DNA of 64,000 nucleotides from Candidatus Acidulidesulfobacter diazotrophicus (GTDB taxonomy: Bacteria; SZUA-79; Acidulodesulfobacterales; Acidulodesulfobacteraceae), in assembly GCA_004195025.1 (NCBI GenBank), contig SGBB01000002.1:124001-188000 (forward strand). The letters run 5' to 3'. The translations under genes were made by a program, and so were the position numbers. The notes below the pieces were generated by a model. That model was not told the origin of the DNA, did not search any database, and worked only from the letters and a program-made list of their open reading frames with translations. This document shows positions 14,457-59,930 of the stretch, in pieces. The stretch's first letter is position 1; each line of letters starts with the position of its first letter.

Positions 14457-14513
14457 AATAAGATATATTAATAATTTTTTATTAAAATTTAAAAACAGGC
14501 GGTATAAATTATT

Positions 14514-16856
14514 ATGTTTAATTTAGACAATTATGAAGACAAGCTGTCGGAAAGCGGATACAGAGTCCTTACTATTTCCATAGAAGAATCAAAAAAAAGA
14601 AAACATTACTATCTTGGATTGGAACACATATTTTATGCACTCACCATAGTTGATGAAGATTTAATGAATGATATATTCGAAGATCTTAAAATAGATAAGA
14701 AAAAATTACTAAAATTGTTTAACGATTATATGATGTCCCAAGAACAATATATAGGAGAAGGTCTTAAAATACCTCTTCAAACCAGAAATATTTTTAAGAG
14801 CGCTTATGATTATGCCCAGAGTTCTGGGAGAAATATGATAGACTCTACCGATTTTCTTATGGTAATGTTTCAAGAATCTGCTTCGGTTATTGCAAAAGTA
14901 TTTAATAGCATAGGAATTGATTCGGTTGTTATAGCAGACAAAGTATTTCAAAAAATTAGAGAAAGAAAAAACAGAAGCGATGAAAATAGAAGAAAATATG
15001 ATCTTCCTTATACTTTAAGACAGCATGCTATTAATTTAAGCAAATTGGCAGTTATGGATAAACTGTCTTTAGTTTTTGACAGAGATGCGGAAATTACTAA
15101 AGTCATGGAGATATTGTGCCATATAGACAGATCTAATTCCGTTATGATTGTCGGCGAACCTGGGGTAGGTAAAACCGCAGTAGTTGAGGGATTAGCCAGA
15201 AAAATAGAACTTGAACCTTACAATGTGCCGCCGAGGCTTAGAAATAAAGTTATAGTAAATCTTCAAATGAATTCTCTTATAGCAGGCACTGTTTTTAGAG
15301 GTATGTTTGAAGATAGGATGGAGAAAATAATAAATGAGATTAAATCAAGAAAAAACATTATTCTTTTTGTAGACGAAGTTCATTCAATTATAGGAGCAGG
15401 TTCTGCGATAGGGGTGCCCAGCGATGCGGCAAATATTTTAAAATCTTCTCTTTCCCGCGGCGACGTTCAGATAATAGGCGCTACGACTTTATCGGAATAC
15501 AAAGAATATATTGCAGACGATGAAGCTCTTGCAAGAAGATTCAGGCTCGTGTATGTTAAAGAGCCGTCAATTGAAAGCACTAAAAGAATTATGTACGGAT
15601 TAAAAAGAAGATTTGAAGACACATATAATGTTGAAATAACAAAAGAAGCAATAGACGAATCAATTCATCTTTCATCAAGATACAGCAGATCATTAAGACT
15701 TCCCGATAAAGTAATAGGCTGGTTAGATACAGGATGCGTCAAGGCGGAAATATATTCCGAAGATAAAACCGTGAGAAAAGAAAATATTTATCAGGTCGTA
15801 TCGCAGGAGACTAATATACCTATTGATTTGATTAAGCGCGATGTCCTCGAAAGATTTCAGGATATGGAAGATTTCTTTTCTAAAAGAATAGTCGGACAAA
15901 CCGAGGGAATAGAATCTCTTGCCAAACATATAAGGCTCAACAAGGGTCCGCTTAAAGAAAATTATGACAGACCTGACGGGGTACTTCTTTTTTTAGGTCC
16001 TACAGGTGTAGGAAAAACTGAAACAGCGAAAGCACTGGCAGAATATATGTTCGGTTCTCCAAAAAATTTGATAAGAGTAGATATGTCGGAGTATAAAGAC
16101 GGTTCTATTGCGGTAGATAAACTTATAGGAATGCCTCGCGGAATTGTCGGTTCTTCAAGGGGAGGTATTCTTTCCAATCAGGTAAAAGATAACCCTTTTT
16201 CAGTTATTTTATTAGATGAAATAGAAAAAGCGAGCGATATGGTTTTTAATTTGTTTCTGCAAGTTTTTGACGAAGGATTTTTAACCGACGGGAGAGGGAA
16301 GAGAGTATATTTTTCCGATTCTATAATTATTATGACTTCAAATCTTGGTTCGCATGAATTTTCTAGATTTACCAAACCGTTAGGATTTATTGAATCTTCC
16401 GATGTTATTAAGTCTATTAAATCTACAATTAACAAAGAAGTTGAGAACCATTTTTCGCCTGAGTTTATCAATAGAATAGATGACGTTGTAATTTTTTCTC
16501 CGCTAACGAAAGATGAAGTTAAAAAAATTGCGTTATTGCATATAGAAAACATCAATAAAAGCATGGCTAATTATGATAAATTATTAATTGTAGAAGATAA
16601 TGCATTGGATAAACTTGTAGAACTCGGTTTCAGCGCTAAATACGGAGCAAGATTTTTAAAAAGAACAATGGACGATATAATAAAAGTCCCCCTTACGTTA
16701 AAATGGAACGACGGATACAGGTTTATCGCCGAATTAAAAGACGGTAAAGTGTATGTTGAAGCTGATAAAAATTATAAATATAAAAAAGAAAAATTAAATA
16801 ATGATAAAAGCATACTAATTAAAGAAACCATTGGAGGAGAACCTGACTATGTTTGA
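14514..16856 (+). CDS. clpA: ATP-dependent Clp protease ATP-binding subunit ClpA
   Basis: Hexameric AAA+ unfoldase that would feed substrates to ClpP. Clp-N repeats occupy about 1-140. D1 has Walker A GEPGVGKT at 214-221 and Walker B ILFVDEVHS; D2 has Walker A GPTGVGKT at 495-502 and LLDEIEKA. There is no long coiled-coil middle domain between the AAA modules, unlike ClpB. A Leu623-Gly624-Phe625 tripeptide in the D2 loop after TSNLGS matches the IGF/IGL-type ClpP-docking loop, absent at the same place in the ClpB below. 780 aa. No clpP or clpS is seen in the window. Its last 8 nt overlap the next gene. Confidence 0.88.
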   Translation: MFNLDNYEDKLSESGYRVLTISIEESKKRKHYYLGLEHIFYALTIVDEDLMNDIFEDLKIDKKKLLKLFNDYMMSQEQYIGEGLKIPLQTRNIFKSAYDYAQSSGRNMIDSTDFLMVMFQESASVIAKVFNSIGIDSVVIADKVFQKIRERKNRSDENRRKYDLPYTLRQHAINLSKLAVMDKLSLVFDRDAEITKVMEILCHIDRSNSVMIVGEPGVGKTAVVEGLARKIELEPYNVPPRLRNKVIVNLQMNSLIAGTVFRGMFEDRMEKIINEIKSRKNIILFVDEVHSIIGAGSAIGVPSDAANILKSSLSRGDVQIIGATTLSEYKEYIADDEALARRFRLVYVKEPSIESTKRIMYGLKRRFEDTYNVEITKEAIDESIHLSSRYSRSLRLPDKVIGWLDTGCVKAEIYSEDKTVRKENIYQVVSQETNIPIDLIKRDVLERFQDMEDFFSKRIVGQTEGIESLAKHIRLNKGPLKENYDRPDGVLLFLGPTGVGKTETAKALAEYMFGSPKNLIRVDMSEYKDGSIAVDKLIGMPRGIVGSSRGGILSNQVKDNPFSVILLDEIEKASDMVFNLFLQVFDEGFLTDGRGKRVYFSDSIIIMTSNLGSHEFSRFTKPLGFIESSDVIKSIKSTINKEVENHFSPEFINRIDDVVIFSPLTKDEVKKIALLHIENINKSMANYDKLLIVEDNALDKLVELGFSAKYGARFLKRTMDDIIKVPLTLKWNDGYRFIAELKDGKVYVEADKNYKYKKEKLNNDKSILIKETIGGEPDYV

Positions 16857-17421
16857 AGAATCTAAAAATTATGACGATAAGGACAGAACTAATAATCATA
16901 CTGATAAGAATGATAATTCTGAAGGAAAAAGTTTTAAAGTTGTAGATAAAAGATTATTTTCAAAAGACGGCACGTCTAATAAAGATAGCGGGCAGGAAAT
17001 TCAAACTGAAAATGATACAGACAAATCTGAATCTGCGCATAGCATTAATATTAATGAAGAAAAAAATACGGATAGCGAAAAAACAAGAACAGAATTATAT
17101 GATAACGCCAAAAGTGAAATAATCGGCGATAATGAGAAAAGCGAATTTAGCGCAAGCGTTAATGATAATAATATGGATGAATTAAAAGCGGATTTTTCTA
17201 CTTTTGTTTATTCTCTTAATGCTCAAGCTTTGTTCTATCTTGGGAAACTTCCAAATCCTATGACCGGAAAATATGAAAAAGATTTAAAAACTGCAAGATA
17301 TTTGATTGATACGATAGATATGCTTTTTAATAAAACAAAAGGTAATCTTGATGAAAATGAGTCAAAATTAATTACAAATATATTATATGATTTAAAAATG
17401 TTTTACGTTAATGAAAAGTAA
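16849..17421 (+). CDS. DUF1844-domain protein
   Basis: The N-terminal 100 residues are Asp/Asn/Lys/Glu-rich and look disordered. The C-terminal 75 residues match the DUF1844 pattern: FSTFVYSLNAQALFYLGKLPNP, then DLKTARYLIDTIDMLFNKTKGNLDENE and a final helix with LYDLKMFYV. Molecular function unknown. I place the start at ATG 16849 because GGAGGAG at 16833-16839 is correctly spaced before it; a TTG at 16831 is the alternative. Its position between clpA (8-nt overlap) and clpB suggests a link to protein quality control, but this is inference from context. Confidence 0.82.
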   Translation: MFEESKNYDDKDRTNNHTDKNDNSEGKSFKVVDKRLFSKDGTSNKDSGQEIQTENDTDKSESAHSININEEKNTDSEKTRTELYDNAKSEIIGDNEKSEFSASVNDNNMDELKADFSTFVYSLNAQALFYLGKLPNPMTGKYEKDLKTARYLIDTIDMLFNKTKGNLDENESKLITNILYDLKMFYVNEK

Positions 17422-17435
17422 GAGGAGTTTTTCAA

Positions 17436-20033
17436 ATGAGATTAGACAATTTTACTATAAAGTCGCAAGAAGTTATAGAATTAACAATAAATTCCGCAAA
17501 AGAATCAAAAAATCCAGAAATTACCGATTTGCATTTGCTTTTTGCTATTTTAAGCTATGACGACAGTATGGCTGTTTCTTTATTTAAGAAAGTAGGGGCA
17601 GACACAAATAAAATATTAAGTGACGTTGAAAGCGCGCTATCGTCACTTGCTTCTGTTCAAGGAGGCGCTTTAGAACCTAATTTTTCTTCTTCAATGAGAT
17701 TAATATTGGATTTTGCCGATAAAGACAAAACAAGCATGAAAGACGATTATGTTTCCGTAGAGCATTTAATTCTTGCTCTTTTTGATGTAAGAGATACAAA
17801 ATCGTTTAATATTTTAAAAAATAACGGATTAAACAGAGACATTGTTCTTAAAGCACTCTTAGAGATAAGAGGCAATACGAGAGTATCCGACCAAAATCCA
17901 GAAGATAAATATCAGGCTTTAGAAAAATATACGGTAAACCTGACAAAAATGGCAAGAGCAGGAAAGATTGATCCTGTTATAGGCAGAGACGATGAAATCA
18001 GAAGACTCATGGAAGTTCTTTCAAGAAGGACTAAAAATAATCCCGTGCTGATAGGAGACCCTGGAGTGGGCAAAACAGCGATAGTAGAAGGGTTAGCGAG
18101 AAGAATAGCAGACGGGGACATTCCTGAAATTTTAAGAGACAAAACAGTATTATCGTTAGACTTAGGATTATTAATAGCAGGAGCTAAATATAGAGGCGAA
18201 TTTGAAGATAGGCTTAAAGCTGTTGTCAAGGAAATAACCTCTTCCGAAGGGAAAATTATAATATTCATTGATGAACTTCATACGCTTGTCGGCGCCGGCA
18301 AAACTGAAGGCGCTATGGACGCGTCTAATCTTTTAAAACCTGCTCTTGCAAGAGGCGAATTGCGGGCAATAGGAGCGACGACACTTGATGAATATAGAAA
18401 ATATATAGAAAAAGATGCCGCATTAGAGAGAAGATTTCAGCCTGTTTTTGTAGATGAGCCGTCAGTAGAAGATACAATAGCTATTTTAAGAGGACTCAAA
18501 GAGCGCTATGAGGCTTATCACGGTATAAGAATTAAGGATTCGGCCATAATTGCGGCTGCTACGCTTTCCCACAGGTATATAACTGACAGATTTTTGCCCG
18601 ACAAAGCAATAGATTTAATCGACGAATCCTCTGCTAAACTAAGGATAGAAATTGATTCTTTGCCTACAGAAATTGATGAAATACAAAGAAAAATCATTAA
18701 AATTAAAATAGAACAGGAAGCGCTAAAAAAAGAAAAAGATAAAGAATCCAAAAAAAGATTGAATGATTTAGATAAAGAACTTGCCGATTTAGACGAAGAA
18801 TTCAACGGAAAAAAAGCAAAATGGCAGAATGAAAAAGATTTAATTAAAAAGATAGGCGATGCTAAAAAAGAAATAGATTCAGTGAGAACATTGGAACAAA
18901 AATTCGAAAGAGAAGGTGATTACGAAAAAGTTGCCGAAATTAGATATGGTAAATTAAACGAATTAGAAAAAAAAATGGTTGAATATAATAATTCTTTAAT
19001 AGAACTTCAAAAAAACGGAGGAATATTAAAAGAAGAAGTTGATGCAGAAGATATAGCAAAAGTCGTTGCAAAATGGACTGGAATTCCTGTTACAAAATTA
19101 CTGGAAGGTGAAAAAGAAAAACTTTTATTAATAGAAGAACATCTGCATAAAAGAGTTATATCGCAAGATGAAGCTATAAGCAGTGTTGCTAATACTATAA
19201 GGCGGTCAAGGGCGGGTCTTTCGGATACTAAAAAGCCTATGGGGTCTTTTATATTTTTAGGACCTACAGGCGTCGGAAAAACTGAGCTTGCAAAAGCTTT
19301 AGCAGAATTTTTATTTGACGATGAAAATAATATCGTAAGAATTGATATGTCGGAATATATGGAAAAACATTCAGTATCAAGGTTAATTGGCGCTCCTCCC
19401 GGCTATGTGGGATACGAAGAGGGCGGGCAATTGACCGAAAGCGTCAGGAGGAGACCTTACAGCGTTATTTTATTTGATGAAATAGAAAAAGCGCATCCGG
19501 ATGTTTTTAATATTCTTCTGCAGCTGCTTGACGACGGACGTCTTACGGACGGACAGGGAAGAACCGTTGATTTTAAAAATACTATTATAATTATGACTTC
19601 CAATATAGGTTCCGATGTTATTCAAAATTATAGCGGAAGACAATATGAAGAAATGAAAAATAATGTAATAGGACTTTTGAAAAATTATTTTAAGCCCGAA
19701 TTTCTTAATAGATTAGACGATATTATAATATTTCATTCGCTTAAAGAAGAAGATATTATTAAAATAGTTGAAATTCAGCTTATTAATCTTTCTGCATTAT
19801 TAAAAGAAAAAAGTATTGATATCGAATTTACGGATAATTTGAAAAAATTTATTTCTATGGAAGGCTATGACCCGGTATTTGGCGCAAGACCATTAAAAAG
19901 AGCAATAAAAGCTTATATTGAAGATAAACTTGCATTAGAACTGCTTTCGTCTAAAATTGTCCAAAATGATTCAATAATTGTAGATTATGACGAAAATAAT
20001 AATGAAGTTATTTTTAGTAAAAAAAATATCTAA
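17436..20033 (+). CDS. clpB: Chaperone ClpB
   Basis: Hexameric AAA+ disaggregase working with DnaK and small heat-shock proteins. Clp-N domain (1-145); D1 Walker A GDPGVGKT 207-214 and [15 protein letters not shown]; a charged coiled-coil middle domain at about 400-535 (rich in [28 protein letters not shown]); D2 Walker A GPTGVGKT 609-616 and [14 protein letters not shown]. The middle domain plus the missing ClpP loop separate it from clpA. 865 aa is the normal length. AAGAGGAG precedes the ATG. Last gene of the hsp20-clpA-DUF1844-clpB run. Confidence 0.96.
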
Positions 20034-33433: not shown

Positions 33434-34750
33434 GTGGTTAAAACCCGTCATAAGATAATTATCGGAGACTCAAGAATAATGAAAGAGTCTGAAGACGAAA
33501 GCGTTCACCTTGTTGTTACATCCCCTCCTTACTGGCAATTAAAAGACTATGGAATAGCCGAACAGATAGGTTTTAACGATAGTTACGAAAGTTATATTAA
33601 TAATCTTAATCTTGTTTGGAAGGAATGCTACAGGGTTTTACATAATGGCTGCAGATTATGCATAAATATAGGCGACCAGTTTGCAAGGGCAGTTTATTAC
33701 GGACGGTATAAGGTAATCCCTATCAGGACGGAAATTATCAAGTTCTGCGAAACTATTGGATTTGATTATATGGGGGCCATTATATGGCAAAAGGTTACTA
33801 CGTCGAATACCACAGGCGGGGCAACAATAATGGGGTCATTTCCTTATCCGAGGAACGGTATTTTAAAATTAGACTACGAATTCATTTTAATATTTAAAAA
33901 AGAAGGTATTCCTCCGAAACCTACAAAAGAGAATAAAGAATCGTCAAGACTTACGAAAGAAGAATGGAATTATTATTTTCAAGGACACTGGAATTTTGCT
34001 GGAGCAAAGCAAGATGCCCACATAGCAATGTTTCCTGAAGAATTACCTAAAAGATTAATAAAAATGTTTTCTTTTGTCGGAGATACCGTTATAGACCCAT
34101 TTCTTGGAAGCGGAACTACATCCCTATCGGCGAAAAACTTAAATCGCAATTCAGTCGGATATGAAATTAATCATAATTTTATAGATACGATAAAAAATAA
34201 ACTTGGCATTGATTATTCAGCCATAAAACAAGTTGATAACGCCGCCGATTTCAATATTATCAATGGCAGCCATAATGACCCCTCTGTTTATCAGGAAATG
34301 ATAAATAGACTGCCCTATATTTTTAAAGACCCGCACAAATTCAATAAAAAGGTTGACCCTAAAAAGTTACAATTCGGTTCCAAGATAGATGAAAATAGTG
34401 GGGCGCGTGAGGAATATTTTACGGTAAAAGAGGTAATAAGCCCTGAATTTATAAAGCTAAGTAAAGGATTAACGATAAAGCTGCTTGGCATCAAACAAAA
34501 TCCGATTGTTAACGGTAAGGCTTTGGCATACCTTATAGATAAATTAAAAGGGCAAAAGGTTTTTTTGAGATACGATAGCTTAAAGTATGATAATGAAAAT
34601 AATCTACTATGTTATCTTTACCTGCAAAATAAAACCTTTATTAACGCCCATTTAATAAAAGAAGGATTGGTTGCCGTGGATACAGAGACCGATTTTAAAT
34701 ATAAAGAAAGGTTTATTAACCTAAATAGGGGCGGTTATGCCGAAAAATAA
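33434..34750 (+). CDS. DNA methyltransferase (beta class) with C-terminal nuclease-fold-like extension
   Basis: Type II modification enzyme, amino-methyltransferase of the beta order: motif IV SPPY at 30-33 precedes motif I (AdoMet site) DPFLGSGTT at 221-229. SPPY is usual for N4-cytosine enzymes, though N6-adenine is possible. Residues about 345-432 (KLLGIKQNP, LAYLIDKLKGQKVFLRYD, LCYLYLQNKTFINAHLIKEGLV) look like a thermonuclease (SNase) fold, but the arginine/glutamate catalytic positions seem replaced, so it may be a DNA-binding relic. Starts at GTG with AGGGGG upstream. Overlaps the nuclease gene by 14 nt. Confidence 0.87.
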   Translation: MVKTRHKIIIGDSRIMKESEDESVHLVVTSPPYWQLKDYGIAEQIGFNDSYESYINNLNLVWKECYRVLHNGCRLCINIGDQFARAVYYGRYKVIPIRTEIIKFCETIGFDYMGAIIWQKVTTSNTTGGATIMGSFPYPRNGILKLDYEFILIFKKEGIPPKPTKENKESSRLTKEEWNYYFQGHWNFAGAKQDAHIAMFPEELPKRLIKMFSFVGDTVIDPFLGSGTTSLSAKNLNRNSVGYEINHNFIDTIKNKLGIDYSAIKQVDNAADFNIINGSHNDPSVYQEMINRLPYIFKDPHKFNKKVDPKKLQFGSKIDENSGAREEYFTVKEVISPEFIKLSKGLTIKLLGIKQNPIVNGKALAYLIDKLKGQKVFLRYDSLKYDNENNLLCYLYLQNKTFINAHLIKEGLVAVDTETDFKYKERFINLNRGGYAEK

Positions 34751-35459
34751 AAAAGAAAAATATTCGAAAGAATTTGGCAAAAAAGAAAAAGTTCTTAATT
34801 ATACCTGCCAGACTTATCAGTTATCAAGACCGGATAAAGTCGGAGCGGTTATGGCACTAATAAGGGAATGCCAGCCTAAATCTTTTGAAGATTGGGAACG
34901 CTGGTATTTTGAAAATGCTTATACGGAAAGCAGGAGTAAGAGTAAGACAAGAACCAAAATCACGAAAGAGGAACTTATAGAGCTTGGCGAAAGATTATAT
35001 GTTAAAATTAAAGAAATTGTTATACCTGAATGGGAAGAAGCATTCAGACAATTAACCCTTCAGGATTGCACCGACTATATTTATAATCTGACAATATGCA
35101 GGACATATGACGGCTTTTTGACGGAAAAGTCCGTAATAAACGATAACTTAGCTAAAAGATTTCCGGACGTTAATTTTCTTGAATCCGATCCCCAGCTTGA
35201 CCATGCAGGGGATATAGATTACCTAGGTTGGATTGGAGATAAAGCTTTTGGCATACAGATAAAACCAGTAACGGCCAGAGCAAACTTTGGTAACTATTCC
35301 GCTTCGGAAAGAATGAAAGCAAGTTTCGAAGAATTTGAGGAAAAATTCGGCGGTAAGGTTTTTATCGTCTTCAGCGTTGACGATAAAGTTGAGAATAAGG
35401 AAATTCTATCTGAAATAGAGGATGAAATCTCAAGACTAAAAGCAGGGAGAAAAATATAG
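34737..35459 (+). CDS. Type II restriction endonuclease, MjaI-like
   Basis: 240-residue protein partnered with the upstream methyltransferase by a 14-nt overlap. The N-terminal block (LSRPDKVGAVMALIRECQPKS split as RPDKVGAVM and IRECQPKSFEDW) recalls the MjaI family, and a PD-(D/E)xK-type site is likely: Asp in GDIDYLGW followed by the GIQIKP strand (Gln-Ile-Lys in place of Glu-x-Lys). MjaI cuts CTAG; whether this enzyme shares that site is untested, and CTAG is present in several places in the window. Family call rests on recollection of motifs, so moderate. Confidence 0.65.
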   Translation: MPKNKKEKYSKEFGKKEKVLNYTCQTYQLSRPDKVGAVMALIRECQPKSFEDWERWYFENAYTESRSKSKTRTKITKEELIELGERLYVKIKEIVIPEWEEAFRQLTLQDCTDYIYNLTICRTYDGFLTEKSVINDNLAKRFPDVNFLESDPQLDHAGDIDYLGWIGDKAFGIQIKPVTARANFGNYSASERMKASFEEFEEKFGGKVFIVFSVDDKVENKEILSEIEDEISRLKAGRKI

Positions 35460-47716: not shown

Positions 47717-48433
47717 ATGACGACGGACCCTTTAAAAAAATTTCATAATGAAGATTGGCATACTCCTGAAGGAAGACTTGTAAGAGAATTTGTATTCGGC
47801 ATTAACGACGGGCTTGTAACAACCATCGGTTTTGTTGCAGGCGTTACAGGGGCATTGGTAAATACAAAAATTGTTCTTATGTCCGGTATGGCGGAAGTTG
47901 TTGCGGGCACGATATCAATGTTTTTCGGAGCTTATCTTGCAACAAAATCGCAAAATGAATTTTATATGAAAGAAATAAATAGGGAAAAAAGAGAAATAAA
48001 AGAAGATCCTGCGCATGAAGAAGAAGAGATATATGAAATATACCGCGATAAAGGTTTTACCGATGAAGAAATAAAACCGATTGTGAAAAGATTAATGTCG
48101 GATAGAAAGCTGCTTCTTAATTTTATGGTAAAAGATGAGCTTGGAATAGGAAATAATTCTCATGAAAATCCGATAAAATTAGCCGCTTATACCGGCGTTT
48201 CCTTTTTAGCGGGAGGCATCCCTCCTTTAATTCCTTATTTTTTTATAAAAAATTCAACTATTGCCGTAATTATTTCTATTTTGTTTTCAATTTTAGTGCT
48301 TATTTTTACAGGTCTTGCAAAATCAAAAATAACAAAAACCAATCCGTTTAAAAGTGCTTTAGAAGTTGTTATTATTGGCGGTATCGCCGCTGCTATAGGG
48401 TTTATTGCAGGCAGATTTATTGCTTACGTTTGA
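47717..48433 (+). CDS. VIT1/CCC1-family Fe(II)/Mn(II) transporter
   Basis: Membrane transporter likely exporting or storing Fe2+/Mn2+. N-terminal REFVFGINDGLVTTIGFVAGVTGA is the family signature TM1; TM2 MAEVVAGTISMFFGAYLATKSQNEF; a cytoplasmic metal-binding helix segment (KEDPAHEEEEIYEIYRDKGF split as EEEEIYEIYRDKGF, with Glu-rich ligands); then three TM helices, ending in IAAAIGFIAGRF. 238 aa. With the ferritin-like fusion and rubrerythrin downstream it supports iron handling as a theme. Confidence 0.9.
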   Translation: MTTDPLKKFHNEDWHTPEGRLVREFVFGINDGLVTTIGFVAGVTGALVNTKIVLMSGMAEVVAGTISMFFGAYLATKSQNEFYMKEINREKREIKEDPAHEEEEIYEIYRDKGFTDEEIKPIVKRLMSDRKLLLNFMVKDELGIGNNSHENPIKLAAYTGVSFLAGGIPPLIPYFFIKNSTIAVIISILFSILVLIFTGLAKSKITKTNPFKSALEVVIIGGIAAAIGFIAGRFIAYV

Positions 48434-49311: not shown

Positions 49312-50745
49312 TTAATATTTTTTCGCAAATGCGCCAAATAAAATAGCTGCCGCAATTAGCATTGCCGCGACGACGGAATAAGCCGCAATATAATTATAAT
49401 AACTAAAAGCAACACCTATAATAACAGGTCCTAATATAAACCCTAAATCGCTCAATGTTCTGTATATCCCTATTGCTTCTTCATAATGATTTTTATCAAC
49501 GCTGTCCATTAAATATAAATTTCTTGCAGGACCGGAAAATCCTCCTCCGGCGCTTAAAAGTATAATAGAAGCAATAAAACCGTCTAAATTTTTAAATATT
49601 ATAAACCATAACATACCTGATGCCGAAATAGCAAAGGATATAACTATTGACCTTTTAATGCCTAATTTATTAATTACTCTGTCGGAGTAATATGTCAATG
49701 CAACTCCGATAAGACCGGATACAGACACAAGCAAGCCTATATAAAACTGATTAATATGTATTATACTTATACCTACTAACGGCACAAGTTCCCTTCTTGA
49801 ACCGATTCTTGAAAAGAAAAAAGAAAAAGTTAAAAAGCATAAAAGCATAAAACTTAGATTTGCAATTAAATTGATGTATTTTTCTTTTTTATATTCTTTT
49901 ATTTTTTTGTCGTGATTTTCAGTTTCAGTATTGATATGTTTAGCGCTTGCTATACCTGTATTATAGCTATTATCTGTACTGATGTTCTTTTTTGTATTTC
50001 CGTTTCCGTCATTAATATTGTTCTTATCGTTAAGCTTATCAACATTAATATTATTATTCTTAACATCATTAATATCAACCTCAATGTCAATATCTTCCTT
50101 ATTCTCAATCGTGCTTTCATCATCGGTATTATTATTGTAAATTTTTTTTAATAATTTTCTGTTATATATTGATATTGAAAAGCCTATAAACATTATAACA
50201 GCATAAAGCAAAAAGGCGCTTTTAAAATGAAATTGAAAAGCTACGGCAGCGCCAATAAAAGGGGCTATCCCCATAGATAGTCTTCTTGCTATCATATACT
50301 TACTTAAAACCTTTGCTCTTTTCTTATCTTGATAAAGATGTTTGGTAAGCATTATCATTGAAGATGTATTTATAATGCCTGAACCAAACCCTTCTAACAA
50401 TCTAAAAATAAATAATTCGTTATAAAAAGTGGAAAAATAATAACCTATTGCCCCTAAAAAAATCAAAAACATACCTACATGCATAAATTGCATTTTAAAT
50501 TTTTTACTTAGAATACTTACGGGAATGTTAATCAAAATGCGGGCTAACCCGAAAGATGCAATTATTAATCCTATAGTAATTATGCTTGCGCCCAAACTTT
50601 TAGCATATAAAGGTAAAACGACGGTGTTCAACCCAAGTCCAAAATCGGCTAACGCAATTGTAGAAAGTATAGCTATTAATAAAGATTTCGTGGATTTATC
50701 TGAATTGCTGATTAAAGTATTATTTTTTGGTATTTTTTTATTCAA
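49312..50745 (-). CDS. Major facilitator superfamily transporter
   Basis: Twelve predicted transmembrane helices in two bundles joined by a long hydrophilic central loop (about 205-290) that is strikingly Asn/Asp/Lys-rich. The first bundle has LGASIITIGLIIASFGLARI and the motif-A-like SILSKKFKMQF; the second has YSDRVINKLGIKR as motif A and GGFSGPARNLYL. 477 aa, above the usual 390-420 because of the loop. Substrate unknown (drug/sugar efflux-type). Alone on the minus strand. The 653-bp gap beyond its start holds only AT-rich microsatellites. Confidence 0.88.
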   Translation of the reverse strand: MNKKIPKNNTLISNSDKSTKSLLIAILSTIALADFGLGLNTVVLPLYAKSLGASIITIGLIIASFGLARILINIPVSILSKKFKMQFMHVGMFLIFLGAIGYYFSTFYNELFIFRLLEGFGSGIINTSSMIMLTKHLYQDKKRAKVLSKYMIARRLSMGIAPFIGAAVAFQFHFKSAFLLYAVIMFIGFSISIYNRKLLKKIYNNNTDDESTIENKEDIDIEVDINDVKNNNINVDKLNDKNNINDGNGNTKKNISTDNSYNTGIASAKHINTETENHDKKIKEYKKEKYINLIANLSFMLLCFLTFSFFFSRIGSRRELVPLVGISIIHINQFYIGLLVSVSGLIGVALTYYSDRVINKLGIKRSIVISFAISASGMLWFIIFKNLDGFIASIILLSAGGGFSGPARNLYLMDSVDKNHYEEAIGIYRTLSDLGFILGPVIIGVAFSYYNYIAAYSVVAAMLIAAAILFGAFAKKY

Positions 50746-51398: not shown

Positions 51399-52766
51399 AT
51401 GGAAAATAGAAACACCTTAAACAAGGAACAAATAATTAAAATACTGCAAAAATTTTTAGATGCCGAAATTGCCGGACGAGACCTTTATCTTCAGCAATCA
51501 AAAAATATTAACGACCCGTCGCTTATTCAAACATTAAAATCATTTGCATCTACGGAAAGCGGTCATATTATCAATATAAGAGATAAAATAACCGAGCTTG
51601 GAGGGAAGCCTCACTCCGTCAGCGAAGTTAGCGACATTCAAAAAGGACTGAGCGATGCATCTCATCAAGTTTCAGCTCCTTTAGATATGCTTAGAATAGA
51701 TTTAAAAATTGAAGAAACTGCGATTAACGATTATACCGCTGCTACTGAAATCATTGACGATGAAGGTGTTAAAACATTAATAGAAAATAATCTTGCCGAA
51801 GAAATTCACCATTCTTTATATTTATCTAAAAAAATAAATGAGATATTAGAAAAAACAAGAAATAAAATTGGCGCTATTAGCAGGATTGAAAAGCCCGGCG
51901 GGAAGGAACCTTCCGAAATATTTAAGGCATCTGTTGAAGTTGGATTATTAAGGCTAAACAGAAGCTGGCTTGAAATGTTTATGTCGGGTTTAATCGCAGG
52001 TATGAATGTCACTTTCGGCATTATTGCTTCTTCTTACGTTGCCGGAGCAACGGAACCTTTAGTCGGAGGACCGACTTCTAAGATATTTGGGGCTTTATTC
52101 TTTCCGATAGGCTTTATGTTTTTGCTAATAGGAAAAAGCGAACTTTTTACAGAAAATTTTTTACTTCCGGTTACTACCGTTTTAGCAAAAAAAACTAAAA
52201 TACGGAGGTTATTTAAATTATGGGGATTAACTTTAGCCGGAAATATGGGAGGTATTTTTCTATTTGCCTTGATTATTGCAAGTTCTTTAGGATTACTATT
52301 GCCTGTATTTGTTATTAATCATATTCATACCGTAGCGCATAGTTATATGTCAAAGTCTCCTTATATTATGGTGCTTAGCGGTGTTTTTGCCGGGTGGCTT
52401 ATTACCCTTATGACCTGGCTTTTAATTGCTTCAAGCGGAACATTGGCTCGAATAATTATAATATGGGCAGTTGGTTTTATGATTTATCTCGGTTCTTTCA
52501 GCCACATAGTTGTCGCCTCTTCAGAAATATTAATATCTATAAATTCAAGTTCGGGAATGTCATATATTCCATGGTTGACAAAATTTGTTCCGTTGACTAT
52601 TATCGGAAATATGATAGGCGGTTTAGTCTTTGTTACAGTATTCCAATATTTGCAGATATTGCATGCAGGCGGAAAGACGGAGATGAGTTTATATTCGTCA
52701 AGCGAACTTGATATGCTTAGCAAAGCAGTTGACCGAAGAATTGAAGATGCTGAAGATACATTATAA
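51399..52766 (+). CDS. Ferritin-like diiron domain fused to a formate/nitrite-transporter (FNT) channel
   Basis: Residues 1-150 form a four-helix ferritin-like/rubrerythrin domain with a full ligand set in sequence: Glu23, Glu53-x-x-His56, Glu105 or Glu106, Glu134/135 and His137/138. From about 185 to 430 follows a six-helix FNT module (MFMSGLIAGMNVTFGI, LIGKSELFTENFLLPV, NMGGIFLFALI, MSYIPWLTKFVPLTIIGNMIGGLVFVTVF), YfdC-like. The FNT is a pentameric channel for small monoanions. The fusion is uncommon; the diiron domain may gate or detoxify at the membrane (inference). 455 aa. Confidence 0.87.
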   Translation: MENRNTLNKEQIIKILQKFLDAEIAGRDLYLQQSKNINDPSLIQTLKSFASTESGHIINIRDKITELGGKPHSVSEVSDIQKGLSDASHQVSAPLDMLRIDLKIEETAINDYTAATEIIDDEGVKTLIENNLAEEIHHSLYLSKKINEILEKTRNKIGAISRIEKPGGKEPSEIFKASVEVGLLRLNRSWLEMFMSGLIAGMNVTFGIIASSYVAGATEPLVGGPTSKIFGALFFPIGFMFLLIGKSELFTENFLLPVTTVLAKKTKIRRLFKLWGLTLAGNMGGIFLFALIIASSLGLLLPVFVINHIHTVAHSYMSKSPYIMVLSGVFAGWLITLMTWLLIASSGTLARIIIIWAVGFMIYLGSFSHIVVASSEILISINSSSGMSYIPWLTKFVPLTIIGNMIGGLVFVTVFQYLQILHAGGKTEMSLYSSSELDMLSKAVDRRIEDAEDTL

Positions 52767-52985: not shown

Positions 52986-53663
52986 ATGGAATATGATGAA
53001 AACGGAGTTAGTATTGTCTCTAATGAATTCAAAAAAGAAATTTTTGAAGAAGCAAAAAAAGATTTTAGATATGAAGAGTATGTAAAAGGATGTCTTAATT
53101 GCGGAGTGTGTACGGGAGGTTGCCCTCCTCACAGGTTTTTTGATTTTTCTCCGAGAATGGTTCTTCAAAATTGCAAATCAAATGACCCTGAACTTGTATG
53201 GGGAATGATGGACGAGTATGTCTGGGCTTGTTTTCAGTGTTTTACATGCGCTATGATTTGTCCTTTTTTAAATAATCCTGGCGGCGTTATTGCAATATTA
53301 AGAGAAATTTCTGTAAGGAGAGGGTTCGAATCTGCAAAAAAAGTTTTAAAACCATACTCCCGCGTTCTTTTGAAATTAACCGCTTATGGAAATCAATTAT
53401 CTCCGGATATGATTCAGCCTGATTTTTTTCCTGATTGGGGACCGCATATAGGATATGCCTCTCAGGATTTGCCGTTAAAAAGAAAAGCTATTCCGATGCC
53501 CACGCTTCAAGTTACAAATCTTGCATGGGATGTCGCTCCAGAAGCAATGAAAGAACTTTATACTATTTTTGAAGAAGCGGGCGTGTTTAAAATTATAGAA
53601 GTGGTAGACCCTGCATTATATGAAATAATTCAGGATATTGTTGATGATGTTAGAAGCGAATAA
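52986..53663 (+). CDS. shdrC1: sHdr complex iron-sulfur subunit C1
   Basis: HdrC-like ferredoxin subunit of the sulfur-oxidising heterodisulfide reductase-like complex. Two 4Fe-4S motifs: CLNCGVCTGGCP (Cys36, 39, 42, 46) and CFQCFTCAMICP (Cys82, 85, 88, 92). 225 aa is the size expected for this subunit. Strong GGAGG before the ATG. First gene of the locus C1-B1-A-H-C2-B2, whose order matches the sHdr clusters known from acidophilic and other sulfur oxidisers (family knowledge). Cytoplasmic; likely passes electrons from sulfane oxidation. Confidence 0.88.
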   Translation: MEYDENGVSIVSNEFKKEIFEEAKKDFRYEEYVKGCLNCGVCTGGCPPHRFFDFSPRMVLQNCKSNDPELVWGMMDEYVWACFQCFTCAMICPFLNNPGGVIAILREISVRRGFESAKKVLKPYSRVLLKLTAYGNQLSPDMIQPDFFPDWGPHIGYASQDLPLKRKAIPMPTLQVTNLAWDVAPEAMKELYTIFEEAGVFKIIEVVDPALYEIIQDIVDDVRSE

Positions 53664-53799
53664 GTGTGAAAAAGATTAATTTTTTAGATACAATATTTAT
53701 TATATAAACATTGTAAACTTAAACTGACATATAATAATAGTATTACCGTATTATTTTATTGAAATACTATTTTACTTTAATTAATCGGGAGAACATAAT

Positions 53800-54996
53800 A
53801 TGGCTATTGAAATCAGAAACAGATTGGGACTTGCCGATGTTAAATCAGATTTTAGACATATTGCAGGCAGAAAAATTGAAAATATTCATGAGGAGCTTTT
53901 AGAACTGGAAGCAAAAGGAGAAATAAAAGTAATTCACATTACTGATGCAAACAAACCGATTGAAGCCGAAACCTTATTCGGACGGAAAAAGAAGATACCT
54001 ACAACTAAATTGTGGCATCATAAATCTTGCGGTCAATGCGGAAATATTCCCGGTTATCCGGTATCTCTTTTATGGTTTATGAATAAATTTGGCACCGAAT
54101 ATATAGATGAAAGAAATCAAACATCCTGTACGGCATGGAACTACCACGGGTCTGCTACTTCTAATCCTGTCGGTCTTGCCGCCGTTGCCGTCAGAAATTT
54201 TCACAGGGCTTACGAGTTAGGGTTATTTCCGTTGATACATTGCGCAACTTCTTTTGGCGATTATAAAGAAATGCGCAACCTTCTTGTTGAAAATAAAGAA
54301 TTAAGGGATGAAGTAAGAAGAATAATGCATAAAATAGGCAGAGAGCTTGTACTTCCTGAAGAAATTGTTCATTATAGCGAATGGGTTCACGTTATGAGAT
54401 TTGAAATTGCAAAATTAAAAAAATATGATTTAAGTAATATCATTACGACGGTTCATCCTGCTTGCCACTGCTATAAGATGATTCCTGAAGATTGTATTTA
54501 CGACAAAAACATTTACGCAGGAAAAAGGACTGCCGTTTCGACGGGCGTTGCCCTTGCTCTAGGCGCTCAAGTTGCCGATTACTCTACATGGTATGATTGC
54601 TGCGGGTTTGGATTCAGACATATTTTAACGGAGAGAGAAGCTTCCAGATCGTTTGTAATGGACAGAAAAATAAGACCTATGGTACGAGAAGCTAATTCCG
54701 ATGTTTGCATAACGCAAGATACGGGATGCACCACAACTCTTGATAAAAATCAATGGATAGGAAAAGCTATGGGTTATACCGAACAGGTTCCCGTTATGGC
54801 AGATGTTATGTTTGCTGCGCTTGCCTGCGGAGCGGACGTCTATAAAATAGTGCAGCTTCAATGGCATACGACAGATTGGAGACCGTTATGCGAAAAAATG
54901 GGAATTGACTGGAAAAAGTCAGAAGAAGAATATAAAGCTTATTTAGAACAGTTGAGATCGGGCGGAAAACCGGAAAATTTATATGAATACGCATAA
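53800..54996 (+). CDS. shdrB1: sHdr complex cysteine-rich subunit B1
   Basis: HdrB-like subunit with atypical CCG-type domains. Cysteine positions: Cys77, Cys80, Cys110 and Cys148 in the N-terminal half; Cys222, Cys224, Cys267-Cys268 (YDCCGFGF), Cys303 and Cys310 in the C-terminal half, a layout that can bind a noncubane Fe-S cluster. 398 aa. Shares gene order with other sHdr loci. A CCG signature with a modified last motif (C-x6-C rather than CxxC) is what I see; cluster type is inferred. Confidence 0.85.
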   Translation: MAIEIRNRLGLADVKSDFRHIAGRKIENIHEELLELEAKGEIKVIHITDANKPIEAETLFGRKKKIPTTKLWHHKSCGQCGNIPGYPVSLLWFMNKFGTEYIDERNQTSCTAWNYHGSATSNPVGLAAVAVRNFHRAYELGLFPLIHCATSFGDYKEMRNLLVENKELRDEVRRIMHKIGRELVLPEEIVHYSEWVHVMRFEIAKLKKYDLSNIITTVHPACHCYKMIPEDCIYDKNIYAGKRTAVSTGVALALGAQVADYSTWYDCCGFGFRHILTEREASRSFVMDRKIRPMVREANSDVCITQDTGCTTTLDKNQWIGKAMGYTEQVPVMADVMFAALACGADVYKIVQLQWHTTDWRPLCEKMGIDWKKSEEEYKAYLEQLRSGGKPENLYEYA

Positions 54997-55205
54997 TTAA
55001 TTACGATTTAATAATTAAATTTAACAACATATAAATTAATGCTACCATAATAGGCTAATACTATTATAATTTGTATGATAAATTAAGAAATATAGTAATT
55101 AAGCAATACAAAATAATTAAACAATATATATAATAGTTTATTATTAATTATAACTATTTATTTACATTTTAAATATAATTTATATTTAAAAAAAGGAGGC
55201 ATTAT

Positions 55206-56249
55206 ATGGCTGAAAATATTCTTGTTATCGGCGGCGGTCCTGCAGGGCTTCATGCCGCTATTGAACTTGCTGAGTTAGGCGTTAATGTCAGCTTAGTAGA
55301 AAGAGATACGTTCTTAGGAGGAAATCCAAAAAAATTTAAATATAAGTATTTATTCCCTGACCTTCAGCCTGCCGACGATGTTATAGGCGAATTAATCAGA
55401 CGTACGGAATCCAACGGCAATATAAAAAAATACTTTTCGGCAAATATAGAAAGCTTTAAAGAAGAAGGTAAAAAATTTAATGCCGTGATAAAATCAGATT
55501 CGGGTTCCGAAACTAAAACATTTGATTCTATAATAGTCGCAACGGGTTTTGAGCATTTTGACCCTGCGAAAGATTCTAAATATTCTTATCAATTATTTGA
55601 TGATGTTATAGACATTAAAGACTTAGAAAGAATGATGGGTGAAGGAAATTTTACCAGACCTTCAAACGGAAAAACTCCTAAGAATGTGGCTTTCATTTTA
55701 TGTGTCGGTTCAAGAGACAGGCATGTAGGCAATCAATATTGTTCAAGAGTATGCTGTACCGTGTCGGTTAAACAAGCAATAGAACTAAGGGAACATTTTC
55801 CTGAAACAGAGGTTTATATATTTTATATGGATATAAGAACCTACGGTTTTTATGAAGATTTATACTGGAAAGCTATGGAAGAGCACGATGTTCAGATAGT
55901 AAAAGGCAGAGTTGCCGAAATTACCTCAGGACCTGATAATACGGTAATATGTAAAGGCGAAGATACTCTATTAAGAGGACCTTTTGAAATACCTTTTGAT
56001 ATGGTAGTTTTAGCTTCAGGAATGGAAGGCGGACCTCAATCACCTGAAATGGCAAATAAATTAGGCATAGAACTTGACGAGCATGGATTTTTAAAATACG
56101 CGAATGTAACTCTTTCGCCGTGCAAATCAAATAAAGACGGAATTTTTCTTGCGGGAGCATGCACTGGACCTAAGGCAATTGCAGATGCAATAATTGAAGG
56201 CGGAGCTGCCGCTATGAATGCTTATATATATGCTAAGAAAAATTCTTAA
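55206..56249 (+). CDS. shdrA: sHdr complex flavoprotein subunit A
   Basis: FAD-binding HdrA-like subunit: GGGPAG at 9-14, VERDTFLGGN, VATGFEHFDP, a Cys motif C166-VGSRD...C179SRVCC184, and the terminal FLAGACTGPKAIADAI helix. 347 aa: it lacks the N- and C-terminal ferredoxin domains of methanogen HdrA, which is the mark of the sHdr branch. Strong GGAGG before the ATG. Preceded by a 209-bp AT-rich gap, so internal promoters are possible. Core electron-accepting subunit (inference from the family). Confidence 0.88.
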   Translation: MAENILVIGGGPAGLHAAIELAELGVNVSLVERDTFLGGNPKKFKYKYLFPDLQPADDVIGELIRRTESNGNIKKYFSANIESFKEEGKKFNAVIKSDSGSETKTFDSIIVATGFEHFDPAKDSKYSYQLFDDVIDIKDLERMMGEGNFTRPSNGKTPKNVAFILCVGSRDRHVGNQYCSRVCCTVSVKQAIELREHFPETEVYIFYMDIRTYGFYEDLYWKAMEEHDVQIVKGRVAEITSGPDNTVICKGEDTLLRGPFEIPFDMVVLASGMEGGPQSPEMANKLGIELDEHGFLKYANVTLSPCKSNKDGIFLAGACTGPKAIADAIIEGGAAAMNAYIYAKKNS

Positions 56250-56465
56250 GTTTATAATTTATTAAGTTTATATATGATTATATTAAAAAAATATTTTTAT
56301 TGTTTAGATTTTGTTTAAATTATATTAAATTATATTAAATTATATTAAATTAACCGCAGGTTTAAACAAGGTTTAAAGGTATATAGCTAATAGCGGCGAT
56401 TTAAAAAATTTTCATTATTATTTGTTATTTCATTTTTTAGATTTTATAAATTTTATTAAAACTCT

Positions 56466-57194
56466 ATGCCGTATATATTAAAGAATAATAAAATAGATTC
56501 AAGATATGAAATTAAATTTTTTGAAATAATCAGAGAAAATTTAAATAATGAAAAATTAGATGAGCTTTATACGCTTTTAGACAAAAAGTCTAATATAGTA
56601 AAAGATTTTATTAATACCTTAAACTTAAATAATCCGGATTTTGAATATATTTTATCTTTAGTATTTTCAATACGAAGACATAAGAAAAAAATATTAGATA
56701 CGATAAGCGATAAAAATTTAATTTCGGCATTTAATGTTTTTAAGGGGAAAAAATCTCAAGAAATAAAAGTGGGGAAATTTCTTGAGATTTTAGACTACGA
56801 TGATGTGATAGTCAAGAGAGATCTTGCGTTTGAAATTTTGCATTTTCTTGAACCTGAAAATAATATTTTATGGACGACATGGATTTATAAACAGGATAGC
56901 GGAACAGGTTCACTGCCGTATATGGCTGATTTTTTAAAAAGGACATGGGACGGAAATGCATATATAATGCCGTTTACATTTAGGGAAATGCGGGATGAAA
57001 TAGATTATCTGTATGAGCTTGCATATAAAAACGGATTTAACATTAAACCTCCGTTCGGAACTGATATTTTGCTGGCTTATATGTATGCAGACTATGTTTT
57101 TAAAATGGTTTATGCCGAATCTAAATCTTTATCGGTAGGTGTTCCAGACGGGTATACTTTGATGAAAAAATTATTAGGAATTGAAAAAATATAA
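56466..57194 (+). CDS. shdrH: sHdr-associated conserved protein H
   Basis: 242-residue protein without recognised cofactor motifs, predicted mostly alpha-helical and soluble. Recognised by position between shdrA and shdrC2 and by size, as in sHdr loci elsewhere. Features: an acidic/Asn N-terminal helix region, central FEILHFLEPENNILWTTWIY and C-terminal GTDILLAYMYADYVFKMVYAESKSLSVGVPDG. No cysteine-rich motif, so a structural or assembly role is likelier than redox (inference). No ribosome-binding site evident. Confidence 0.72.
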   Translation: MPYILKNNKIDSRYEIKFFEIIRENLNNEKLDELYTLLDKKSNIVKDFINTLNLNNPDFEYILSLVFSIRRHKKKILDTISDKNLISAFNVFKGKKSQEIKVGKFLEILDYDDVIVKRDLAFEILHFLEPENNILWTTWIYKQDSGTGSLPYMADFLKRTWDGNAYIMPFTFREMRDEIDYLYELAYKNGFNIKPPFGTDILLAYMYADYVFKMVYAESKSLSVGVPDGYTLMKKLLGIEKI

Positions 57195-57253
57195 TGCAAA
57201 TAATGCAAATGTTTTATTAAACCTAAATCCAGATTCAGAATATAATATTCTGG

Positions 57254-57273
57254 ATTCCCGCCTGCGCGGGAAT
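57254..57273. repeat. dRS3-like palindrome (MITE remnant)
   Basis: ATTCCCGCCTGCGCGGGAAT, the palindrome used in all copies of the repeat family, here joined to a 65-bp tandem repeat downstream. Confidence 0.8.
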
Positions 57274-57422
57274 GACTTAGTATAAATTTAATAAAACTCA
57301 AAATTGTAGTTGTATTATCTATTGACAATGAGCGGAATGACTAAGTATAAATTTAATAAAACTCAAAATTGTAGTTGTATTATCTATTGACAATGAGCGG
57401 AATGACTTAGTGTAAATTTAAT
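57271..57422. repeat. 65-bp tandem repeat (2.3 copies)
   Basis: Units begin at 57271, 57336 and 57401, each starting AATGACTTAG or AATGACTAAG. Each contains ACTCAAAATTGTAG and TATTGACAATGAG, which look like degraded terminal repeats of the MITE-like family. Lies in the 360-bp gap between shdrH and shdrC2. Confidence 0.85.
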
Positions 57423-57554
57423 ATATTAATCAATTTAATTTTTATCAGATTTATAATTTATAAGTTGCGGTATTAAGTAAGTTTGCCGTATAAATTCAAT
57501 ATATTAATCAATTTAATTTAATTAATTTAATTTTGCAATCAGATTGGAGGCATT

Positions 57555-58337
57555 ATGGCTGAAGAGCATAATAAAAATAGCGTAAGACCTGTTGCTGAAA
57601 AAGGCGAACATATAATAGCAAGGCATCTGATAGATGACGATGCAATTAAAGAAGAAAAAAATCTTGTTATTGACGGCGTGGATGTTTCTGGCAGATGGAA
57701 TACATTTATTGAAACAAGAGTCGATTCTGAATATGACAGAAGTTTTTTTGATGAAATTCAAAAAACAGTTGTCGGTTCGAGAATTAACAGATGCTGGCAA
57801 TGCGGAATGTGTACGGCAAGCTGCACTGTAACTCCGTTATATAGAAGATTTAACCCTCGCTCCTTTATATATATGATGCAGCTCGGCAATTTAAAGCAAT
57901 TAAAAAAATATGTAGATGTTGCATGGCGCTGCGTAGGATGCTATAAATGTTCACAAAGGTGCCCCAAACAGGTTAATCCGGCAGAAATGATGGAAGCGCT
58001 CGCTCTTTTAATAAAAAAATATTTTCCCGAAGAGATTAAATCTAAACATCAATTAACAATTGATGAAGAAGTTAAAAAAATATATGAAGGTATGATATTA
58101 GGACATGGCAGATTAGATCTTGCAAATCTTCATACTTCTGCTATGAGAAAAATGGGTAAAACTTCTGAACTATTGAGCGATAAAGATGAAAGAGGCGCTA
58201 TTTTTAAAATGATGAAAGACGGTAGGGCATTGTCCGTTTTAAGGCTCGGAAAACCCCACAAATGGCATAAATCAAAAGACGCTATTGATAAATATCTACA
58301 AAATACGGGAACTCTTGAGCAGGAAAGCCAAGTATAA
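57555..58337 (+). CDS. shdrC2: sHdr complex iron-sulfur subunit C2
   Basis: Second HdrC-like subunit: 4Fe-4S motifs CWQCGMCTASC (Cys80, 83, 86, 90) and CVGCYKCSQRC (Cys126, 129, 132, 136), with an extended N-terminal part (1-75) not found in C1. 260 aa. A GGAGG (in TTGGAGGCATT) precedes the ATG. The tandem-repeat-laden gap before it and a 41-bp tandem repeat after it break the tight spacing usual in this operon. Confidence 0.88.
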   Translation: MAEEHNKNSVRPVAEKGEHIIARHLIDDDAIKEEKNLVIDGVDVSGRWNTFIETRVDSEYDRSFFDEIQKTVVGSRINRCWQCGMCTASCTVTPLYRRFNPRSFIYMMQLGNLKQLKKYVDVAWRCVGCYKCSQRCPKQVNPAEMMEALALLIKKYFPEEIKSKHQLTIDEEVKKIYEGMILGHGRLDLANLHTSAMRKMGKTSELLSDKDERGAIFKMMKDGRALSVLRLGKPHKWHKSKDAIDKYLQNTGTLEQESQV

Positions 58338-58420
58338 TAATGCATAACAACAAGTATTAAAATTTTATAGAATTATAATTATTTTATAAATATATCAACA
58401 TAAATAAATAATTAATATAA

Positions 58421-58502
58421 CGATATAACAATATCAATAAATAATTAATGTAACGATAAAACGATATAACAATATCAATAAATAATTAATGTAACGATAA
58501 AA
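58421..58502. repeat. 41-bp tandem repeat
   Basis: Two copies (58421-58461, 58462-58502) beginning CGATATAACAATATC, preceded by a partial unit. In the 292-bp shdrC2-shdrB2 gap. Confidence 0.85.
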
Positions 58503-58629
58503 CAGTAAGACGGTATGTAATTTTGTATTTGTATTAGATTATTATTGGATTATTATGGAGTTAGATTAAAAATAATATAATATAATATAATAATAAAATT
58601 AACAATAAAACAATGAGGTGATATATAAT

Positions 58630-59553
58630 ATGGAAACTTTAAAAGAAAATCAGGCTGCGTATTATCCCGGATGCGCGTTATTAACTATTGACAGAGCTTA
58701 TAACAATAGTTCTAAATTGGTTTCTAAAAAAATGGGCATAGAATTGGTGGAAATACCGGATTATAATTGCTGCGGTATCGGAGAAATGAAATCTAAAGGC
58801 GCTGTGTCTTTATATTTGCCGCTTAGAAATATGACGATTGCTAAATCTAAACTCGGGAGCAAAGATCTTGTTATGGCATGCTCCGTCTGCTACCATGAAT
58901 TTACAAGGTCTATTACAAAAGTAAAGGAAAATAAAAAACTTCTTGATGAGGTTAATTTAATTTTGAAAGATGCAGACGAGGAAGAATATGCTCCAGAAGG
59001 TGAAGCGCGTCATATTCTGGAGTTTTTATATAATGAAAAAGGTCCCGACGAAGTTAAAAAAAACACGGTTAAACCATTAAAGGGGATAAAGGTTGCTCCG
59101 TATTACGGCTGTTTATATACAAGACCTTCAATGTATACTTTTGCTGATAAAAAACCAAACTTGGATAATTCCGAAAAACCGCATTTTATGCATGATTTTC
59201 TTGAAAGCATGGGTGCCGAAGTTGTTAGTTATGGAAACGAAGTTCAATGCTGCGGAGGCAGAAATGTAGTTCAGGACGAAGAAACTTCATTTACTTTATG
59301 TTCTCAAACACTTTCAAAAGCAAAGAAAGCCGGAGCCGATTTTCTGGTAGTTATTTGTCCAAAATGCGCAGGAGCATTAGACGTAAATCAGCCGAAAATT
59401 GTTGAAAAATATGGAGAAGATTCAGAACTTCCCGTTGTATATCTTACCCAGCTGATGGCATTGGCTTTCGGTTTTTCCGAAAAAGACGCTCAATTTAGCG
59501 ATATGATATCAAATCCATTAAAAGTATTAAAAGAAAAAGGAGGTTTTATTTAA
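58630..59553 (+). CDS. shdrB2: sHdr complex cysteine-rich subunit B2
   Basis: HdrB-like subunit with two canonical CCG domains. First: YPGC..., CCGIGEM, then CSVCYHEF. Second: YYGC, QCCGGRN, then CPKCAG. Each fits C-x(n)-CC-x(n)-CxxC that binds a noncubane 4Fe-4S cluster; this is the likely active site for sulfur-substrate handling (family knowledge). Start at ATG 58630 rather than GTG 58618, because GAGGTG lies 9-10 nt upstream; 308 aa. A rubrerythrin gene follows 2 nt later. Confidence 0.88.
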   Translation: METLKENQAAYYPGCALLTIDRAYNNSSKLVSKKMGIELVEIPDYNCCGIGEMKSKGAVSLYLPLRNMTIAKSKLGSKDLVMACSVCYHEFTRSITKVKENKKLLDEVNLILKDADEEEYAPEGEARHILEFLYNEKGPDEVKKNTVKPLKGIKVAPYYGCLYTRPSMYTFADKKPNLDNSEKPHFMHDFLESMGAEVVSYGNEVQCCGGRNVVQDEETSFTLCSQTLSKAKKAGADFLVVICPKCAGALDVNQPKIVEKYGEDSELPVVYLTQLMALAFGFSEKDAQFSDMISNPLKVLKEKGGFI

Positions 59554-59555
59554 TT

Positions 59556-59930
59556 ATGACAAAGACTGAAAAAAACTTGGCGGAAGCTTTTGCAGGCGAA
59601 TCGCAGGCGAACAGAAGATATACTGCATGGGCAAGGCAGGCGGATGCAGAAGGCTATCCTGAAGCAGCAGAACTTTTCAGGTCTGTTGCCGAAGGCGAAA
59701 CAGCTCATGCTTTAGGTCATTTTAATCATATGAAAGGCGTAAAAACTACGGCAGAAAATTTAAAAAAAGCTGCGGAAGGAGAAAGGTACGAAGTAAACGA
59801 AATGTATCCGCGTATGGCAAAAGAGGCGCGTGAAGAAGGGTTAGAAGAAATTGCAAAATGGTTTGAAATGGTAGGAAAGGCAGAGAATTCCCATATGAAA
59901 GCTTTTGAAAAAATTTTATCTGAATTATAA
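59556..59930 (+). CDS. Rubrerythrin-type diiron protein (no rubredoxin domain)
   Basis: Ferritin-like oxidative-stress protein of the rubrerythrin family. Ligand pattern: GESQANRRYTAWARQ (Glu of first helix), GETAHALGHF (Glu-x-x-His), EGERYEVNEMYPRMA and KAENSHMKAF (Glu-x-x-His). The C-terminal rubredoxin is missing, 124 aa. Start only 2 nt past shdrB2, so co-expressed with the sHdr complex; it might protect the oxygen-sensitive clusters (inference). Confidence 0.9.
   Translation: MTKTEKNLAEAFAGESQANRRYTAWARQADAEGYPEAAELFRSVAEGETAHALGHFNHMKGVKTTAENLKKAAEGERYEVNEMYPRMAKEAREEGLEEIAKWFEMVGKAENSHMKAFEKILSEL

Follow-up and report, generated by a model that had tools for sequence, protein, structure and literature searches.

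FocA, the formate channel of Escherichia coli, has a cytoplasmic N-terminal domain that engages the vestibule and gates transport (PMC8914244; PMC12559229). The FNT family also includes hydrosulfide channels and the YfdC-type proteins, to which no substrate or function has been assigned (PMC5525234). In FocA numbering, the latter are marked by a Glu after the Omega-loop Thr (followed in YfdC-alpha by an Asn), Gly at Asn172, and Val at Ala212; the residue at Gly86 is basic in most of them, and their N-terminal segments, at 42-55 residues on average, are the longest (PMC5525234). Among proteins that couple a ferritin-like domain to transport, the nearest functional parallel to the protein described below is MbfA, whose N-terminal cytoplasmic ferritin-like domain is active as a ferroxidase; the VIT1 domain joined to it depends on that domain for transport (PMC7762939).

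The window analyzed here, a stretch of DNA of 64,000 nucleotides, encodes a protein in which a ferritin-like domain precedes an FNT domain:

51399..52766 (+): ferritin-like/FNT fusion gene, 455 amino acids, ATG start, single open frame
51435..51848 (+): ferritin-like four-helix domain, residues 13-150 (Pfam Ferritin; AlphaFold and Foldseek; invariant ligands in 25 fusions)
51849..51914 (+): linker, residues 151-172, with low model confidence at 156-167
51915..52649 (+): FNT channel domain, residues 173-417, with YfdC-type marks

The fusion shares with FocA the FNT fold, the conserved Omega-loop Thr and central His, and an N-terminal part that is probably cytoplasmic; whereas this part in FocA is a short helix that gates transport, the fusion has a folded domain of metal-binding type instead, and the pore and vestibule residues differ between the two. 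With YfdC-alpha and YfdC-beta it has more in common, namely the FNT fold, the Omega-loop Glu-Asn, Gly for Asn172, Val for Ala212, a charged or polar residue for Gly86, the central His, and a long N-terminal segment. In the fusion, however, the first transmembrane helix is preceded by about 170 residues that include a folded ferritin-like domain, compared to the YfdC average of 42-55, and the central constriction reads F-I/M/L-H-V among fusions rather than the YIHV of YfdC.

One reading frame encodes both domains

The 455 codons of the gene run from the ATG without interruption. Pfam Ferritin matched residues 13-148 of the product with an E-value of 2e-9, which exceeds the curated cut-off, and Form_Nir_trans (PF01226) matched residues 173-417 with an E-value of 5.5e-47 over profile positions 1-239 of 240; both families were likewise matched in all 22 fusions scanned. 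No NCBIfam model, the one for MbfA included, scored above its cut-off. Residues 1-165 are devoid of a strongly hydrophobic segment, several of which occur in the FNT part, and the linker between the domains varies in length and sequence among fusions, being shorter by about 11 residues in those of other lineages. In comparison with near relatives, third codon positions account for most substitutions, and this holds for both domains as well as for the linker, which argues for one continuous selected frame across the junction. An earlier note on this DNA had described the ferritin-like domain as joined directly to the FNT and had named a frame error between two separate genes as what would undo that description; such an error is ruled out by the open frame, the third-position substitutions, and the conservation of the fusion in relatives. 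We thus confirmed that a ferritin-like domain of the iron-binding type, for which metal binding is predicted, and a small-anion channel domain form one protein.

Predicted diiron site and YfdC-type pore

AlphaFold modeled the ferritin part as a four-helix bundle spanning residues 9-158 (pLDDT 89.9, pTM 0.85), with helices at 9-36, 40-66, 94-118, and 122-158 and an additional short helix at 74-88. When this model was searched with Foldseek, it matched Dps-like proteins, mini-bacterioferritin, and bacterioferritin with TM-scores of about 0.7-0.8 and mostly 16-24% identity. The bundle contains two Glu/ExxH half-sites (E/ExxH/E/ExxH), as in the ferritin-like superfamily, and the predicted diiron ligands E23, E53, H56, E105, E135, and H138 are kept in 25 of the 25 fusions compared, as are Y30 and Y112. 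The full Glu/His ligand set read earlier from the letters is therefore both complete and invariant. In total, 18 positions of the domain are invariant, the six predicted ligands among them. Because the ligands persist although this half is only 24-29% identical between lineages, the diiron site is predicted to be functional, and this conservation is the strongest argument for it. A chance match to ferritins is ruled out by the score above the Pfam cut-off, the confident fold, and the invariant ligands.

The best fold matches, Bacterioferritin/Dps-like (DPSL) ferritins, share the four-helix bundle and the E/ExxH/E/ExxH set with the fusion domain, which differs from them in being tethered to a membrane channel, in its 16-24% identity, and in that cage formation is not expected. 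Thioferritin, a DPSL protein, is defined by a conserved pair of cysteines close to its metal site; the window protein has no cysteine in residues 1-160, and this identity was rejected. Since each chain has one complete four-helix bundle in the AlphaFold model, a pentamer would carry five bundles and five diiron sites, not the ten bundles suggested previously.

The FNT half is 38-40% identical between lineages. AlphaFold modeled the full chain less well than the ferritin part (pLDDT 76.9, pTM 0.54, with values below 50 at residues 156-167); the C-terminal part of that model matches the folds of PfFNT, HSC, FocA, and LciA. The profile match covers the whole length of the family, and the Omega-loop Thr (T251) and central pore His (H369) are invariant in 25 fusions. 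The Omega-loop of the window protein reads LFTEN (249-253, with E252 and N253), and G332, V372, and K246 complete the YfdC marks, the last being Lys within the organism's own family and Arg, Gln, or His in the fusions of other lineages. As all these marks are present with H369 retained, comparison with the marks listed in PMC5525234 places the FNT half in the YfdC type, as the earlier note had supposed, and not the HSC type. The assignment is well supported by sequence and is made at the level of YfdC, our small FNT tree having weak support as regards clustering with YfdC-alpha or YfdC-beta. By our own alignment, the central constriction is formed by F235-I362-H369-V372, a pattern that PMC5525234 lists for an unclassified FNT.

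Distribution and genomic neighborhood

The same architecture, which the earlier note had recommended seeking elsewhere, was found as full-length fusions in three lineages. Within the window organism's own family, probably Ca. Acidulodesulfobacterales to judge from its isolated position, its dsr and sHdr content, and PMC6776010, 23 of 30 genomes carry it. So do 8 of 9 genomes belonging to another, small phylum. In a third phylum, that of genome G392, carriers number 4 of 395, a rate that is not an unbiased estimate, three of the four having entered through the first search. Among the 356 non-family genomes of the broad sample, only three contain a fusion, all of the small phylum, and some other carriers are recorded as Thermodesulfobacteriota or Aquificota. 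Apart from fragments at contig ends, the relatives found in public genomes have the fusion over its full length. In one copy, in genome G049 (L070, G049:C10:89708-90984), a frameshift close to the H56 codon divides the gene into two frames; this may be an assembly error, and the copy was left out of the counts. Phage records gave no match to the ferritin part. In plasmid records, the matches were partial and mostly to FNTs without the fusion, and none of them reached 80% coverage of the query. The domain trees are weakly supported and do not separate a single origin of the fusion from repeated ones. Given its presence in three distant bacterial lineages with all predicted ligands kept, the fusion is probably a working unit.

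The surroundings of the gene in the window are as follows:

47717-48433: VIT1/CCC1-family membrane protein (Pfam VIT1, 2e-70)
49312..50745 (-): MFS transporter, divergent, the conserved upstream neighbor in the family (context only)
52986..59553 (+): sHdr type I cluster hdrC1-B1-A-hyp-C2-B2, by gene order and Hdr families, with hdrC1 at 52986, hdrB1 at 53800, hdrA at 55206, hyp at 56466, hdrC2 at 57555, and hdrB2 at 58618
59556-59930: rubrerythrin-type protein of 124 amino acids, after the sHdr cluster

Type I sulfur-oxidizing sHdr clusters are defined by syntenic shdrC1B1AHC2B2 (PMC11582611). The neighboring cluster has this order, including an sHdrA-type flavoprotein and a Hyp protein that is equated with sHdrH from its position. 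The best solved-structure match of HdrA is 6tjr (E=2.3e-78), the HdrA-like subunit of Hyphomicrobium denitrificans. The genome also contains several GcvH/LbpA-like genes, as well as dsrA. As a separate observation, G002, a 99% complete genome of the window genus, gave no dsrA match, and all nine other family genomes tested, the window's included, have one.

Where the flanks suffice, the family order is the divergent MFS gene, the fusion, and then hdrC1-B1-A-hyp-C2-B2. The fusion lies on the same strand as hdrC1, directly upstream, with a gap of about 110-420 bp in most family genomes, and no terminator-like site was found between the two in the window. This arrangement, together with the hydrosulfide channels of the FNT family (PMC5525234), is what would be expected if the protein served the sHdr pathway by conducting a sulfur anion (HS- or bisulfite/sulfite), the ferritin-like domain being accessory to it, but we regard that role as improbable. 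The FNT part is of YfdC and not HSC type, and synteny within one family may reflect simple inheritance, the MFS, PMT, and PilM genes being equally conserved there. Moreover, three genera (g2, g3, and g5; 95-100% complete) retain sHdr while the fusion is cleanly absent between MFS and hdrC1. In G011, the contig stops at hdrC1 and the fusion was not found elsewhere in the genome. No other FNT was detected in these genomes. They fall among carriers in the sHdr-protein tree, which suggests several losses, repeated gains being formally possible. Carriers from the other two lineages, where tested, gave no hit for the sHdr Hyp protein, by a query that had no positive control outside the family, and none for dsrA above the cut-off; no neighbor gene is common between lineages. 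Because sHdr is kept without the fusion and the other lineages' carriers tested lack detectable sHdr-Hyp and dsrA, a dedicated role through sHdr is weakened and a general sulfur role is unlikely. As synteny, the association with sHdr is real; it is not general, however, and we do not base the function on it.

The VIT1 gene lies about 3 kb from the fusion in the window genus, and the family inhabits iron-rich acid mine drainage (PMC6776010). These observations and the architecture, which parallels MbfA, would suit an iron handler in which the ferritin-like domain captures or oxidizes iron while the FNT mainly anchors it to the membrane or carries a counter-anion. MbfA, like the fusion, has an N-terminal ferritin-like domain (placed in the cytoplasm in the fusion by inference) and a C-terminal membrane transporter (PMC7762939), but its transporter half is a VIT1/CCC1 cation exporter, whereas the C-terminal domain of the fusion is an FNT anion channel with no VIT1 match. 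The VIT1 neighbor was seen only in the window genus, and the retained pore residues speak against a mere anchor. FNTs are channels for anions and weak acids and are not known to transport metal cations. We consider the iron-handling alternative improbable. The architecture is also paralleled by an MbfA-like protein with a ferritin-like domain and an apparent VIT1 domain, encoded by a 417-aa ORF at L089 1387-2640 (genome G252).

Proposed function and other features of the window

We assign a probability of roughly 40% to the reading that the fusion is a weak-acid or anion channel whose N-terminal gate has been replaced by a diiron sensor; here we infer metal occupancy, pentameric assembly, gating, and substrate. 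The computed support comprises one protein with both folds, invariant ligands, and intact pore residues including the central His, in three lineages. As the ligands and the pore residues (Omega-loop Thr and central His) are all invariant, both halves appear to be under selection together. In the proposed mechanism, a YfdC-group channel, pentameric by homology, would conduct a small weak acid or anion, and every protomer would have a cytoplasmic ferritin-like diiron domain of its own where a short N-terminal segment or gate is usually found. The diiron site would sense cytoplasmic Fe(II), O2, or peroxide by being diferrous as opposed to oxidized or empty, and the linker would relay its state to the N-terminal helix at the cytoplasmic pore mouth, so that the pore opens or closes. 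The earlier note had suggested gating or local redox chemistry at the membrane, and both are treated here as proposals. The narrower proposition, that a non-heme diiron site sensing iron, oxygen, or peroxide gates a small-anion channel directly, is tentative. The linker, which differs among fusions in both length and sequence and is modeled with low confidence, speaks against assuming a rigid mechanical coupling. Also counting against this reading, several genera have dispensed with the gene.

A catalytic role would fit the ligands equally well because ordinary ferroxidases of the ferritin-like type, standalone ones among them, share this set. The domain could then be an enzyme of ferroxidase, peroxidase, or oxidase type held at the channel mouth, producing, consuming, or protecting whatever the channel transports, without gating. 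The complete Bfr/rubrerythrin-type set is the catalytic set of ferroxidases, the closest folds are Dps-like proteins and bacterioferritins, the MbfA domain has ferroxidase activity (PMC7762939), and in the window genus the rubrerythrin gene is close by. Yet no reductase or electron-transfer domain is fused to the protein, no conserved redox partner adjoins the gene outside the family, and the rubrerythrin is missing in most family genomes beyond the window genus; we judge an anchored enzyme doubtful.

Both halves of the fusion are members of known families, and no description of their combination was found in the open-licence literature searched, nor any documented function, which bears out the earlier remark that the pairing was not obviously described. 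Diiron gating of FNT channels, should the tentative gating proposition hold, would be a regulatory principle not described in that literature. With its conserved predicted metal site, this natural YfdC-FNT fusion offers a handle on what controls YfdC-type FNTs and would allow metal- or redox-gated anion transport to be tested directly, and it carries the idea of a ferritin plus a transporter, known from MbfA, over to an anion channel.

Elsewhere in the window, two further groups of genes were noted by eye. At 33434-35459, a DNA methylase-like ORF overlaps a restriction endonuclease-like ORF, a possible restriction-modification pair, and at 14046-20033, a small heat-shock-like gene precedes two large genes for Clp-type ATPases (14514-16856 and 17436-20033).
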